Part shown: positions 11,712 to 17,466 of the stretch, piece by piece | How the letters are laid out: the number at the start of each line of letters is the position of its first letter | How positions within the stretch are numbered: the first letter of the stretch is position 1 | NCBI GenBank assembly: GCA_947581795.1 | Contig: CANPVS010000005.1 | Span: 24,674-88,673, forward strand | Length of the DNA stretch: 64,000 bases | Source: an uncultured Oscillospiraceae bacterium | Lineage (GTDB): Bacteria; Bacillota; Clostridia; Oscillospirales; Oscillospiraceae | Direction of reading: 5' to 3' | Program-made: the position numbers and the translations under genes | Notes under the pieces: model-generated | The model's input: the letters and a program-made list of their open reading frames with translations, nothing else | The model's database searches: none | Told to the model about the DNA's origin: nothing

Positions 11712-14261
11712 ATGAAGAAACTGGCCATCGGCATACTGGCCCACGTAGACGCGGGCAAGACCACCCTCTCCGAAGGGATGCTCTATTTGGCGGGCAAAAT
11801 CAAGAAGCTGGGCCGGGTGGACCACCGGGACACTTACCTGGATACCCACGACCTGGAGCGCGCCCGGGGCATCACCATCTTCTCCAAACAGGCGGTATTC
11901 ACCGCCGGGGAAACCGAGATCACCCTCCTGGATACCCCCGGTCACGTGGATTTCTCCCCGGAGGCAGAGAGGGTGCTCCAGGTGCTGGATTACGCCATCA
12001 TGGTGGTGAGCGGCACCGGCGGCGTCCAGGCCCACACCGAGACCCTGTGGACCCTTTTGCAGCGCTATAGGGTCCCCACCTTCGTCTTCGTCACCAAGAT
12101 GGACGTGAACGGCACGGACAAGGCCAGGCTCATGGCCGACATCCACGCCCGCCTGGGCGAGAATTGCGTGGATTTCGCCCCGGACAACGCCGGACGTGAC
12201 GAGGCGATCGCCATGCTGGACGAGGCGGCTCTGGATAAGTACATGGACTTCGGCGCTCTCTCCGACGAGGAGATCATCCGCCTTGTCCGGGAGCGGAAGC
12301 TGCACCCCTGCTTTTTCGGCTCCGGGCTGAAGCTGGACGGCGTGGAGGAATTTCTCGCCGCCCTGGAGCGTTATACCGCCGTCCCCGCCTGGCCCGCGCC
12401 CTTCGGGGCCCGGGTTTACAAGATCGGCCGGGACGCCCAGGGAAATCGCCTTACCTACCTGAAGGTCACCGGCGGTACCCTCGCCGTCCGGGCCCCCATC
12501 CGGTATCTGCCCCTGCGGGGCTCGGAGCCGGTGGAGGAAAAAATAAGCCAGATATGCCTCTACTCCGGGGTGAAGTACGACACCGCCGACATGGTGCCCG
12601 CGGGGCAGGTCTGCGCCGTCACAGGACTCACCAAAACCTGGCCGGGCCAGGGTCTTGGCGCGGAGCCGGACGGTGACGAGCCCTACCTCACCCCCGCCAT
12701 GGGCTACCGTATCCGCCTGCCCAAAGGCTGCGACGCCCGGACCATGCTGCCGAAGCTGAAACTGTTGGAGGAGGAAGAGCCTCAGCTGCACATCCTCTGG
12801 CAGGAGACGTTGGGGGAGATACACGTCCAGCTCATGGGCGCGGTGCAGATAGAGATACTGAAGAGCCTCATTAAGGACCGCTTCGACGTGGACGTGGAGA
12901 TCGACGCAGGCCGGGTCCTCTACCGGGAGACCATCGCGAGCACCGTGGAGGGCGTGGGCCATTTTGAGCCCCTGCGCCACTATGCGGAGGTGCATCTGCT
13001 GCTGGAGCCGGGCGAGCCGGGCAGCGGCATCGTGCTGGACACAGTTTGCTCCGAGGATGTGCTGGACCGGAACTGGCAGCGGCTCATCCTCACCCATCTG
13101 GAGGAGAAGCAGCACCTGGGCGTGCTCACCGGCTCCCCCCTCACCGACGTGAAGATCACCCTCCTGGCCGGCCGGGCCCACTTAAAGCACACCGAGGGCG
13201 GCGACTTCCGCCAGGCCACCTACCGGGCCGTGCGCCAGGGGCTCATGCAGGCCGAGAGCGTGCTCTTAGAGCCCTATTACGCCTTCCGCCTCACTGTGCC
13301 CGCCGAGCAGATCGGCCGGGCCATCACCGACGTGCGGGCCATGGGCGGGACCCACGACAGCCCTGTGACCGAGGGAGCGGACATGGTCCTCACCGGGGCC
13401 GCGCCCGTGGCCGCCATGGGCGATTACGCCGCCCAAGTGGCCGCCTATACCGGCGGCCGGGGCCGGTTCTCCTGCCACGTGGAGGGCTATCGTCCCTGCC
13501 ACGACGCCGACGCGGTGATAGAGGCCATTGGCTATGACCCTGAGGCGGACCTGGAAAACACCCCCGACAGCGTCTTCTGCGCCCACGGGGCAGGCTTCAC
13601 GGTGAAGTGGGACAAGGTGCCGGAGTATATGCACCTGGACAGCGGCCTCAAAGACCCGGCAGCCCCCGAAGACCTGGAGCCCACCGTCCAGCGGCAGAAT
13701 CTCAACATTGACGACAAGGAGCTGGAGGCCATCATGCTCCGGGAGTTCGGCCCCATCCGCCGGAAGCAATACGCCGCCCCCCAGATCAACAGCGCCGTGG
13801 GCATCCAGATGCAGGTCCGGAAGGACCACGAGCACATCATCGTGGACGGCTACAACGTGATCTTCGCCTGGGATGAGCTGAAGGCGCTGGCGGCGGAGAG
13901 TTTGGACATGGCCCGGTCCCGGCTTCTGGACATGCTGGCCAACTACCAAGGCTACACCAAGAGCGACCTGGTGGTGGTCTTCGACGCCTACAAGGTCCCC
14001 GGCGGCCAAGGCAGCCGGGTCACTCACGGCAACCTCCGGGTGGCCTACACCAGGGAGGGCGAGACGGCGGACATGTATATCGAGCGGCTGGTGGACGAGA
14101 TCGGCAAGAACGAGACCGTCCGGGTGGTCACCTCCGACCGGATGGTCCAGGTGGGCGCCCTCCGCTCCGGGGTGCTGCGCTGCTCCTCGGGAGAGTTCAA
14201 GACCGAAGTGGAATGGGTCCTGGAGCAGATATCCGACGCGGTGAAAAGGTCGCAGTTTTGA
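11712..14261 (+). CDS. TetM/EF-G-like translation GTPase fused to C-terminal YacP/Rae1-like NYN endoribonuclease domain
   Basis: G1 AHVDAGKTT, RARGITIFS, DTPGHVDFS; C-terminal IIVDGYNVIFAW...VVVFDAYK...ETADMYIERL...VVTSDRMVQ. Confidence 0.88.
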   Translation: MKKLAIGILAHVDAGKTTLSEGMLYLAGKIKKLGRVDHRDTYLDTHDLERARGITIFSKQAVFTAGETEITLLDTPGHVDFSPEAERVLQVLDYAIMVVSGTGGVQAHTETLWTLLQRYRVPTFVFVTKMDVNGTDKARLMADIHARLGENCVDFAPDNAGRDEAIAMLDEAALDKYMDFGALSDEEIIRLVRERKLHPCFFGSGLKLDGVEEFLAALERYTAVPAWPAPFGARVYKIGRDAQGNRLTYLKVTGGTLAVRAPIRYLPLRGSEPVEEKISQICLYSGVKYDTADMVPAGQVCAVTGLTKTWPGQGLGAEPDGDEPYLTPAMGYRIRLPKGCDARTMLPKLKLLEEEEPQLHILWQETLGEIHVQLMGAVQIEILKSLIKDRFDVDVEIDAGRVLYRETIASTVEGVGHFEPLRHYAEVHLLLEPGEPGSGIVLDTVCSEDVLDRNWQRLILTHLEEKQHLGVLTGSPLTDVKITLLAGRAHLKHTEGGDFRQATYRAVRQGLMQAESVLLEPYYAFRLTVPAEQIGRAITDVRAMGGTHDSPVTEGADMVLTGAAPVAAMGDYAAQVAAYTGGRGRFSCHVEGYRPCHDADAVIEAIGYDPEADLENTPDSVFCAHGAGFTVKWDKVPEYMHLDSGLKDPAAPEDLEPTVQRQNLNIDDKELEAIMLREFGPIRRKQYAAPQINSAVGIQMQVRKDHEHIIVDGYNVIFAWDELKALAAESLDMARSRLLDMLANYQGYTKSDLVVVFDAYKVPGGQGSRVTHGNLRVAYTREGETADMYIERLVDEIGKNETVRVVTSDRMVQVGALRSGVLRCSSGEFKTEVEWVLEQISDAVKRSQF

Positions 14262-14281: not shown

Positions 14282-15139
14282 ATGCGTATCATCGACACCT
14301 ATTCAGACATCCCCGCGGTCTATGAAAACGGCGCGTTTTCCCTTGACCGCTGGCGGGATTATATCGACGCCGCCATCCCCGGTCTGCGGCCCCTGCTGGA
14401 ATCAGACAAGAATGAAATGTTGGCCGGGGACGGTGTTGACTGGGAGAAGGACTTTCTTCCCGTTTTGAACGCTCTGCCCGAAAAAGCGGACCGCTGCCGG
14501 GCCGCCCACGACTGCTTTCTACGCGTCACAGAAGGGCTGGACACAGCCATCCTGGACAAGTTCGGCAAGGGGCTGGACGTAGATATCTATTTCTATCTTG
14601 GTCTTTGCAACGGCGCCGGCTGGGTCACGTCTCTGAACGGGCGAACGGTCGTCCTGCTGGGGCTGGAAAAGATCGTAGAGCTGGACTGGTGCGGACAGGA
14701 CGATATGCGGGGCCTCATCTGGCACGAACTGGGTCACGTCTACCAGGCCCAGTACGGCGTGCTGGAGCGGAGCTTTGACTGCCCCGCCGACAGGTTTCTC
14801 TGGCAGCTCTTCACCGAGGGCGTCGCCATGGTCTTCGAGCAGACCCTGGCGGAGGACGACGGATACTACCACCAGGACAAAAACGGCTGGAAGGCTTGGT
14901 GCGACGGCCATTTTGAGGCTATCAAGGCAGATTTTCTCCGGGATCTGGATACCATGACCCCTGCCGGCCAGCGCTGGTTCGGCGACTGGGTACGCTATCA
15001 GGGCCACGGGGATGTGGGCTACTTCCTGGGCAGCCGGTTCGTGCGGTATATCCTTTCCCTGTACCCCCTGGACGAGATCATATCCTTTGATATCGGCGAC
15101 GTGAAGCGCCTGTACGACCTATTTATGGACCATGGATAA
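14282..15139 (+). CDS. Uncharacterised putative zinc metallopeptidase (HExxH)
   Basis: LIWHELGHVYQ and downstream FTEGVAMVFE (gluzincin-like). Confidence 0.55.
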   Translation: MRIIDTYSDIPAVYENGAFSLDRWRDYIDAAIPGLRPLLESDKNEMLAGDGVDWEKDFLPVLNALPEKADRCRAAHDCFLRVTEGLDTAILDKFGKGLDVDIYFYLGLCNGAGWVTSLNGRTVVLLGLEKIVELDWCGQDDMRGLIWHELGHVYQAQYGVLERSFDCPADRFLWQLFTEGVAMVFEQTLAEDDGYYHQDKNGWKAWCDGHFEAIKADFLRDLDTMTPAGQRWFGDWVRYQGHGDVGYFLGSRFVRYILSLYPLDEIISFDIGDVKRLYDLFMDHG

Positions 15140-15878
15140 AGATCTGGAAAAGCGTATAGAGGAATTATCCGCCCGGTGCGAGAGGAACAGCGTCGTGACC
15201 TCCACCGGCTTTCTCACTATGGCCGAGCAGATGGAGGTCTCCGCCTGGGCCAATCGGCTGACCGACGTAGCGCTCCACCTGGACGGCGGGGACGAGCTCT
15301 GCGAGCGCAAGTGCGCCTTTTTTCTCCCCTACTGGATGGAGGAAGCGGACTTCGACCCAGCCGAATACATCCACGCCGTGAAAGCCACGGCCTTTTTCGG
15401 CACACCCTCCCACCGGGACTATATGGGCGCGGCGCTGGCTCTGGGCATCCGCCGGGAGTGGATCGGCGACTTCCGGGTGGTGGATGACGCGGCCTATATC
15501 TTCTGTCTGCCCACCGTAGAAAAGCTCCTCACCGACGAGCTTACCCAGGCCGGGCGGGTGAGCCTTAAAACGGCCTCCATCCCCCTCTCGGAGGTGCCAA
15601 AGCCGGAGCGGAAGGTGAAAAAGCTCACCTTCACGGTGAAGAGCCTGCGCCTGGACGCGGTGGCGGGCGGCATGTTCGGCCTGTCCCGCACCGCCGCGTC
15701 GGAGCTCATCCGGGCCGGGGCGGCGACGCTTAACTATGTCCAATGCTTACACGTGGACGCGCCCATCCACGAGGGGGACGTGATCTCCCTCCGGGGCTGG
15801 GGCAAGGGCGCGGTCACCTCCTTGGGCGGCCAGTCGAGAAAAGACAGGACGTTTTTGGAAGCGGAGATATATCTGTGA
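15132..15878 (+). CDS. YlmH-like S4 RNA-binding domain protein
   Basis: SLRLDAVAGGMFGLSRTAASELIRAGAATLNY S4 signature and YlmH-like N-terminal part. Confidence 0.85.
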   Translation: MDKDLEKRIEELSARCERNSVVTSTGFLTMAEQMEVSAWANRLTDVALHLDGGDELCERKCAFFLPYWMEEADFDPAEYIHAVKATAFFGTPSHRDYMGAALALGIRREWIGDFRVVDDAAYIFCLPTVEKLLTDELTQAGRVSLKTASIPLSEVPKPERKVKKLTFTVKSLRLDAVAGGMFGLSRTAASELIRAGAATLNYVQCLHVDAPIHEGDVISLRGWGKGAVTSLGGQSRKDRTFLEAEIYL

Positions 15879-16010: not shown

Positions 16011-16064
16011 TATTTGTCTCTCCTTTTGTTGTATTTTTTTGCTTTTCCCGCGCACAATAGCACC

Positions 16065-17084
16065 ATGGAAACGAAACGAATGGGTAAACAGACCGTCCAC
16101 CTCACTTTGCAGCCCGGCGTGGCCGCGGCGGCGTGCGTGGGCGGCAAGAAAGAGAGCGAGGGCCCTCTGCGCAAATACTTCGACTACCTGAGCGAGGACT
16201 CCCGCTTCGGCGCCAAGAGCTGGGAGAAGGCGGAGAGCGCCATGCTCAAAATGTGCTGGTCCATCGCCTGCGACAAAGCTAAGACAAGCCCCAGCGACGT
16301 GGAATACGTCTTCTCCGGCGACCTTCTCAATCAGTGCGCCGGTTCCGCCTATGCCATGCGGGAGTGCGGTGTGCCCTACTTCGGCCTGTACGGCGCCTGC
16401 TCCACCATGGCGGAGGGGCTTTCCCTGGCCGCCATGATAATCGACGGGGGCTTTTGCTCCACCGCCGCCGCGGCCACCAGCTCCCACTTCTGCTCCGCCG
16501 AGCGGCAATACCGCTTCCCCCTGCAGTACGGCTGCCAGCGGCCGCCCACCAGCCAGTGGACTGTCACCGGCGCGGGGGCACTGATCCTGAAAGCCGACGG
16601 CCCGGCACCCTATGTGACCCACATCACCACCGGCGTGATAACCGACGCGGGCGTGACGGACATGAACAACATGGGCGCGGCCATGGCCCCGGCGGCCTAT
16701 GAGACCTTGAAGGCCCACTTTGCCGACACAGGCCGGGACCCGGATTACTATGACGCCATCGTCACCGGGGACCTGGGCATCGTGGGCTCCCACATCCTGG
16801 CGGACCTGTTCTGGAAAGACGGGGTGGACCTGGGCGTGCGGTATATGGACTGCGGCCGGCTCATCTACTCCTCCAACGGCCAGGACACCCATTCCGGTGG
16901 CTCCGGGTGCGGGTGCTCCGCGTCGGTGCTCTGCGGCCACCTGCTCCACGGGATGCTGGAGCACAACTGGAACCGGCTCCTGTTCGCCGCCACCGGGGCC
17001 ATGATGAGCCCCACCACCAACCAGCAGGGCGAGAGCATCCCCGCCATCTGCCACGCGGTGGCGCTGGAAAACACACGTTGTTGA
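16065..17084 (+). CDS. spoVAD: Stage V sporulation protein AD
   Basis: KMCWSIACDKAKTSPSDVEYVFSGDLLNQCAGSAYAMRECGVPYFGLYGACSTM. Confidence 0.93.
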   Translation: METKRMGKQTVHLTLQPGVAAAACVGGKKESEGPLRKYFDYLSEDSRFGAKSWEKAESAMLKMCWSIACDKAKTSPSDVEYVFSGDLLNQCAGSAYAMRECGVPYFGLYGACSTMAEGLSLAAMIIDGGFCSTAAAATSSHFCSAERQYRFPLQYGCQRPPTSQWTVTGAGALILKADGPAPYVTHITTGVITDAGVTDMNNMGAAMAPAAYETLKAHFADTGRDPDYYDAIVTGDLGIVGSHILADLFWKDGVDLGVRYMDCGRLIYSSNGQDTHSGGSGCGCSASVLCGHLLHGMLEHNWNRLLFAATGAMMSPTTNQQGESIPAICHAVALENTRC

Positions 17085-17100
17085 ATAAGTGGTGACTGAT

Positions 17101-17466
17101 ATGGATTGGATGCAGTTTTTGAGAGCGTTTCTGGTGGGCGGGCTTTTGTGCCTCGTCGGCCAGGCGCTCATCGACCTCACCAAGCTCACCCCCGCCCGCA
17201 TTTTGACCGGCTACGTGGTGGCCGGGGTGATACTGGGGGCCGTTGGGCTCTACCAGCCCCTGGCCGACTGGGCCGGGGCCGGAGCCACGGTACCTCTCAC
17301 CGGGTTCGGTAATCTCCTGGCCCGGGGCGTGAAGGAGGCCGTGGCCCAGCGGGGCGTCCTGGGCGCCTTCACCGGTGGCTTCACCGCCGCGGCGGGCGGT
17401 GTCTGCGCCGCCATCTTCTTCGGCATCCTGGTTGCCTCCCTTTTCAAGAGCAAAGAACGGTATTGA
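17101..17466 (+). CDS. spoVAE: Stage V sporulation protein AE
   Basis: MQFLRAFLVGGLLCLVGQALIDLTKLTPARILTGYVVAGVILG. Confidence 0.92.
   Translation: MDWMQFLRAFLVGGLLCLVGQALIDLTKLTPARILTGYVVAGVILGAVGLYQPLADWAGAGATVPLTGFGNLLARGVKEAVAQRGVLGAFTGGFTAAAGGVCAAIFFGILVASLFKSKERY

Follow-up and report, generated by a model that had tools for sequence, protein, structure and literature searches.

The window, a stretch of 64,000 nt from a gut-type clostridial genome, encodes a single protein in which an EF-G/TetM-like ribosome GTPase is joined to a Rae1-type nuclease (Table 1). The GTPase half represents a separate subfamily, which also occurs unfused, and the evidence well supports that the fusion takes the place of standalone Rae1 in many related bacteria. 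We propose that the protein may be an A-site endoribonuclease of the Rae1 type, linked by a tether to a GTPase of its own, the two acting in sequence and handing the ribosome over to tmRNA or RqcH/YlmH, a reading to which we assign about an even chance. Coordinates given below are positions in the window, and residues follow the numbering of the 849-aa fusion.

Organization of the fusion gene

The fusion is encoded by one unbroken frame, whose ATG at 11712 is preceded by GGAAAGG and whose start site is the same in homologues. The first-pass annotation, made from the sequence alone, had placed a GTPase and an NYN domain in one frame, and this is confirmed by Pfam domains at both ends of the 849-aa uninterrupted frame: GTP_EFTU (E-value 1.2e-45), EFG_III (3.1e-5; 24.4 bits, slightly under the curated cut-off of 27 bits), EFG_IV (2.2e-17) and EFG_C (6.4e-15) are followed by NYN_YacP (PF05991; 8.3e-43, 146.7 bits against a cut-off of 24.6). 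The same architecture is seen again in full-length frames of scores of genomes, which rules out an assembly artefact.

Some copies depart from this layout. In L113:7783-10453 and L065 (G469), a frameshift apparently separates the GTPase/helix part of the fusion from the NYN domain, which may represent sequencing error, decay or a programmed frameshift. In the closed genome G427 (L066), the open frame of the fusion has 618 aa and lacks the N-terminal GTPase part; the locus also includes a type I restriction methylase-like frame, and this copy is possibly interrupted.

Table 1. Features of the fusion gene and of the two genes downstream of it in the window.
Feature	Position	Strand	Residues	Basis and remarks
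Fusion gene: GTPase, subfamily extension, tether and NYN nuclease	11712..14261	+	849 aa	
GTP_EFTU domain	11712..12377	+	4-222	Pfam; AHVDAGKTT, RARGITIF, DTPGHVDF, TKMD
EF-G domains III, IV and V	12693..13505	+	328-598	Pfam
Domain IV tip, AHLKHTEGGDF	13176..13208	+	489-499	K492 aligned with TetO P509
Subfamily extension, NTPDSVFCxHGAGFxVxW...YMH	13506..13634	+	~599-641	Alignment, model
Tether, variable, low-confidence	13635..13829	+	~642-706	Model, homologue comparison; short helix 668-679
NYN_YacP (Rae1-type) nuclease domain	13836..14252	+	709-847	D712, D758, D787, D809
Gene between fusion and ylmH	14282..15139	+		Frame, no Pfam match; HExxH-like motif WHELGH (IWHELGHVYQ)
YlmH-like protein	15132..15878	+		PF17774; second gene downstream of fusion

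An AlphaFold2 model built from a 20-sequence alignment (mean pLDDT 80.6, pTM 0.61) presents an EF-G-like body, which matches EF-G structures in Foldseek (E-values to 2e-51), a small extension placed with confidence as far as residue 641 or so, and the NYN domain at residues 707-848. The tether between the last two is of low confidence, most of it having pLDDT values under 50, and includes a single short helix. The position of the NYN domain relative to the body is not reliable in this model, and the low pTM is expected, since the NYN is a tethered domain. The tether region, measured from the extension motif to DGYN, has 78-188 residues in 95 homologues, a length that would be sufficient for the GTPase and then the NYN domain to act one after the other.

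The nuclease domain

Rae1 acts in the ribosomal A site (PMC12320835, PMC10100781). The NYN domain of the fusion matches the B. subtilis YacP/Rae1 structures 5mq8/5mq9 at 2.9e-23, and Rae1 residues D7, D53, D81 and D104 all have an aligned Asp in it. D7 and D81, which we take to be the catalytic residues of Rae1, correspond to D712 and D787. Conservation was scored on an alignment of 164 NYN domains. All of them have Asp at the D7- and D81-equivalent positions, without exception among 132 fused and 31 standalone relatives, and the positions of D53 and D104 show full or almost full conservation (1.00 for the fused as well as the standalone group). A degenerate NYN domain is ruled out by these invariant acidic residues, and nuclease competence, as predicted from sequence, is well supported. 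The complete Rae1/YacP-type NYN domain described in the first-pass annotation is thus intact, and the HMM search proposed there for the C-terminal part returned NYN_YacP.

Distribution of fused and standalone Rae1

The earlier reading would have been contradicted by a full standalone Rae1 covering the function, the fused domain being inactive, and the genome does not show this. In the window's genome (assembly 84% complete) the single NYN_YacP is the fused one, with its domain intact, and no separate standalone Rae1 was found. A sample of the order comprised 245 genomes, 88 with NYN_YacP, and in 87 of these the NYN lies in a fused frame, with the GTPase-extension profile A1 also present. The 88th is G101, where the fusion is cut by a contig edge; its reading as a standalone Rae1 was rejected, as the 160-aa frame starts inside linker-like sequence and runs off the locus edge. 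Another 11 genomes of the order present the GTPase without any NYN.

The class sample included 393 Clostridia genomes, with state counts tallied by hand. Frame lengths are bimodal (about 170-216 versus about 850-950 aa): about 136 genomes have the fusion, about 114 have standalone Rae1 (accompanied in about 23 genomes by an unfused GTPase encoded separately), seven have the GTPase without NYN, and the remaining genomes have neither. Fused and standalone NYN are nearly mutually exclusive across Clostridia. If the states were independent, about 40 genomes with both would be expected, against one seen, a contrast that is inflated by genome relatedness. Second NYN matches in G361, G412, G444, G595, G190 and G227 were discarded as short and partial, several being under the family cut-off. 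Only in G515 (L064, L075) were the two forms seen together, a fusion of 883 aa and a complete standalone Rae1 of 174 aa, and this genome offers a natural setting in which to study how they might share the work. The two halves are not strictly dependent on each other, because the GTPase occurs without NYN or beside a separate Rae1.

Evolution of the two halves

In the gene trees, many forks of which are weakly resolved, all 42 sampled fused NYN domains and three standalone ones form one clade (support 100), which excludes the remaining 28 standalone domains, that of B. subtilis Rae1 among them. Three families (f41, f42 and f66) are mixed, part of their species having the old standalone type and part the fusion, a pattern consistent with displacement of Rae1 by the fusion. 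In the GTPase tree, 18 unfused members form a clade of their own (support 99). Other unfused members, from G220, the L. salivarius plasmid pMP118, Bifidobacterium polysaccharolyticum (L145) and a viral contig, are scattered inside the fused group and look like secondary losses of the NYN domain. The extension (NTPDSVFCxHGAGF) is shared by fused and unfused members, and TetO and EF-G lack it; as the unfused proteins have it and end just after, it is part of the GTPase and not a fusion linker.

Two of the unfused proteins deserve description. The L. salivarius UCC118 GTPase (L057:5986-7920) is carried by the megaplasmid pMP118, where it adjoins an rpsN copy; it is annotated as tetracycline resistance and occurs on many L. 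salivarius megaplasmids. The protein of the actinobacterium B. polysaccharolyticum (L145:2529-4550) is 66% identical to that of the window from domain IV to the extension, and was probably acquired by transfer, without the NYN domain.

These distributions bear on the main rival to the proposed tethered nuclease, namely that the linkage is physical only: an ordinary Rae1 and an independent anti-stalling or back-translocation GTPase would be co-localised and co-expressed, with no GTP gating. This explanation stays alive because other Clostridia encode unfused GTPase and standalone Rae1 separately, in genes that are not neighbours, and because GTPase-only genomes exist; the long, variable tether and the apparent secondary NYN losses (G220, L. 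salivarius, Bifidobacterium) also agree with it. On the other hand, the replacement of Rae1 across Clostridia suggests that the joined form matters, and the NYN tree has few state changes and a long retention of the fusion. We regard linkage without gating as rather unlikely, while giving it serious weight.

The GTPase subfamily and the tetracycline label

The GTPase motifs are intact, including the catalytic PGH motif (DTPGHVDF), and the window's genome encodes EF-G separately, together with an EF-G-like protein. The first-pass annotation had described a full TetM-like body. The EF-G/TetM-like domains and motifs stand; the label itself is loose, since identity is about 29% to TetO and about 50% to unfused members of the same subfamily, and tet_protect is the best NCBIfam model yet scores 394.7 bits against a cut-off of 775, about half. 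Nearly all fused and unfused members have the domain IV tip AHxKHTxGGDFR, whereas TetO has YYSPVSTPADFR, and K492 of the window aligns exactly with TetO P509. In TetM, proline 509 lies in the tetracycline site (PMC8161019). In the alignment column of the EF-G tip His, the subfamily also has a His (AH / FH). A TETRACYCLINE protein was rejected by sequence, on account of K492 for P509 and of the tet_protect score. Relatives are annotated in databases as 'TetM/TetW/TetO/TetS family', and 'tetracycline resistance' is probably a mislabel, because the tetracycline-displacing Pro509 is K492. The earlier idea of a role at drug-bound ribosomes or in antibiotic response is not supported: Pro509 is not conserved, and fused and unfused members share another tip signature.

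The same evidence weighs on the suggestion of Atkinson et al. (2015, PMC4342817) that such proteins are tetracycline-type ribosome protection proteins, in which the NYN domain adds an RNase step to resistance. The overall Tet-like architecture, the family names of relatives and the choice of tet_protect as best model speak for it; the half-cut-off score, the lysine and the different tip, the spread over whole families and the displacement of Rae1 by the fusion speak against it, and we hold it to be improbable. The possibility of a recent mobile resistance gene was rejected, as fused plasmid and phage matches are few (two of each at at least 80% coverage). Two records from human faeces named 'Bacteriophage sp.' (MT835563.1 and MT835514.1) have near-full-length fusions and may be mislabelled bacterial contigs.

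A function in stable-RNA (rRNA or tRNA) processing or surveillance on the ribosome, or as a stress or abortive-infection effector, rather than as an mRNA A-site nuclease, would agree with relatives in two IMG/VR contigs and two 'phage' records and with the first proposal for NYN domains, rRNA/tRNA maturation (as cited in a passage of PMC4342817), and is quite unlikely given that the solved relative is YacP/Rae1 (2.9e-23), that the protein is nearly always single copy per genome and that viral matches are few.

Genomic neighbourhood

The unmatched co-directional gene begins about 20 bp beyond the end of the fusion in the window and is in turn overlapped by ylmH. In 18 related loci ylmH is the next gene after the fusion, in the same orientation and in many cases overlapping it, and together with the window these represent 13 lineages under 75% identity, with fusions as low as 48% identical. 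No other neighbour in those loci is clearly as conserved as ylmH. The linkage is seen in the window's subclade only; as an order-wide feature it was rejected, since most genomes of the order carry ylmH elsewhere. YlmH acts in ribosome-associated quality control (RQC) in B. subtilis (PMC11317155), and YlmH, RqcH and tmRNA are all present in the window's genome. The linkage is a hint of a role in RQC and not proof of it. Sporulation genes of the SpoVAD and SpoVAC/SpoVAEB types are also near the fusion (16029-17463), which suggests a spore-forming lineage.

Proposed mechanism and significance

We infer ribosome docking, A-site cleavage, a role of GTP and hand-over as follows. The GTPase body, in the GTP state, would dock at the factor site of a ribosome with a persistently empty A site, where domain IV, with its AHxKHTEGGDFR tip, would probe or clear the decoding centre. 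Once GTP is hydrolysed the body would back out, and the NYN domain, kept close by the flexible tether, would enter the A site and then cut the mRNA. The cut would yield a non-stop ribosome, to be taken up by tmRNA or RqcH/YlmH quality control. EF-G and Tet proteins put domain IV in the A site, and any delivery would have to be sequential, because domain IV and the NYN domain should clash there. Standalone Rae1 functions in B. subtilis without a fused GTPase, which counts against the tethered-nuclease reading, as do the GTPases that lack an NYN partner or sit beside a separate Rae1 and the restriction of ylmH adjacency to one subclade.

GTP-driven delivery of the nuclease may be the function of the fusion. 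Stated more generally, a translational GTPase might deliver a dedicated mRNA endonuclease to stalled ribosomes, timed by GTP and upstream of tmRNA and RqcH/YlmH, and might as such have displaced free Rae1 in much of Clostridia; we put this forward tentatively, at somewhat less than an even chance. If GTP-timed delivery is true, the unfused GTPase would be a partner or a competitor of free Rae1 elsewhere. Such a system would link mRNA cleavage with RQC in bacteria and would assign a role to a GTPase subfamily that is widespread and currently annotated as tetracycline resistance, a label that may inflate resistance-gene counts. About a third of the sampled Clostridia genomes have the fusion in place of free Rae1, and as a natural fusion it is a ready tool for asking whether a GTPase gates A-site mRNA cleavage.

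Comparison with known systems

The Tet-NYN architecture was noted in ten Clostridiales species in a short passage with a resistance hypothesis (Atkinson et al. 2015, PMC4342817), a report that predates the characterisation of Rae1. The first-pass annotation was therefore right to suspect that fusions of this kind had been recorded with no function described. A literature search, which reached few subscription papers, found no functional study of the fusion; within its reach there was likewise no description of the unfused subfamily, of the distinct tip, of the link to ylmH or of Rae1 being displaced. The Tet-NYN proteins of that report have the same domain architecture as the window's fusion, with no structural difference.

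TetM and TetO share with the fusion the EF-G-like domain order and the GTPase motifs; they differ in having P509 and in lacking both the conserved extension of about 40 aa and the NYN domain, and the fusion, unlike them, is spread broadly across whole families. EF-G has the fold in common with it (Foldseek), at only about 25% identity. Closer is LSL_RS10690 of L. salivarius pMP118 ('translation factor GTPase family protein'), with 50% identity over residues 1-643, which has the tip-motif core and the extension as in the fusion, and neither tether nor NYN domain. Rae1/YacP of B. subtilis has in common with the fusion the full NYN_YacP domain, D7/D53/D81/D104 and the single copy per genome. It is a standalone protein of about 170 aa, whereas the NYN domain of the fusion is the C-terminal domain on a GTPase of about 640 aa (849 aa in total), and the fused NYN domains sit in a separate clade.
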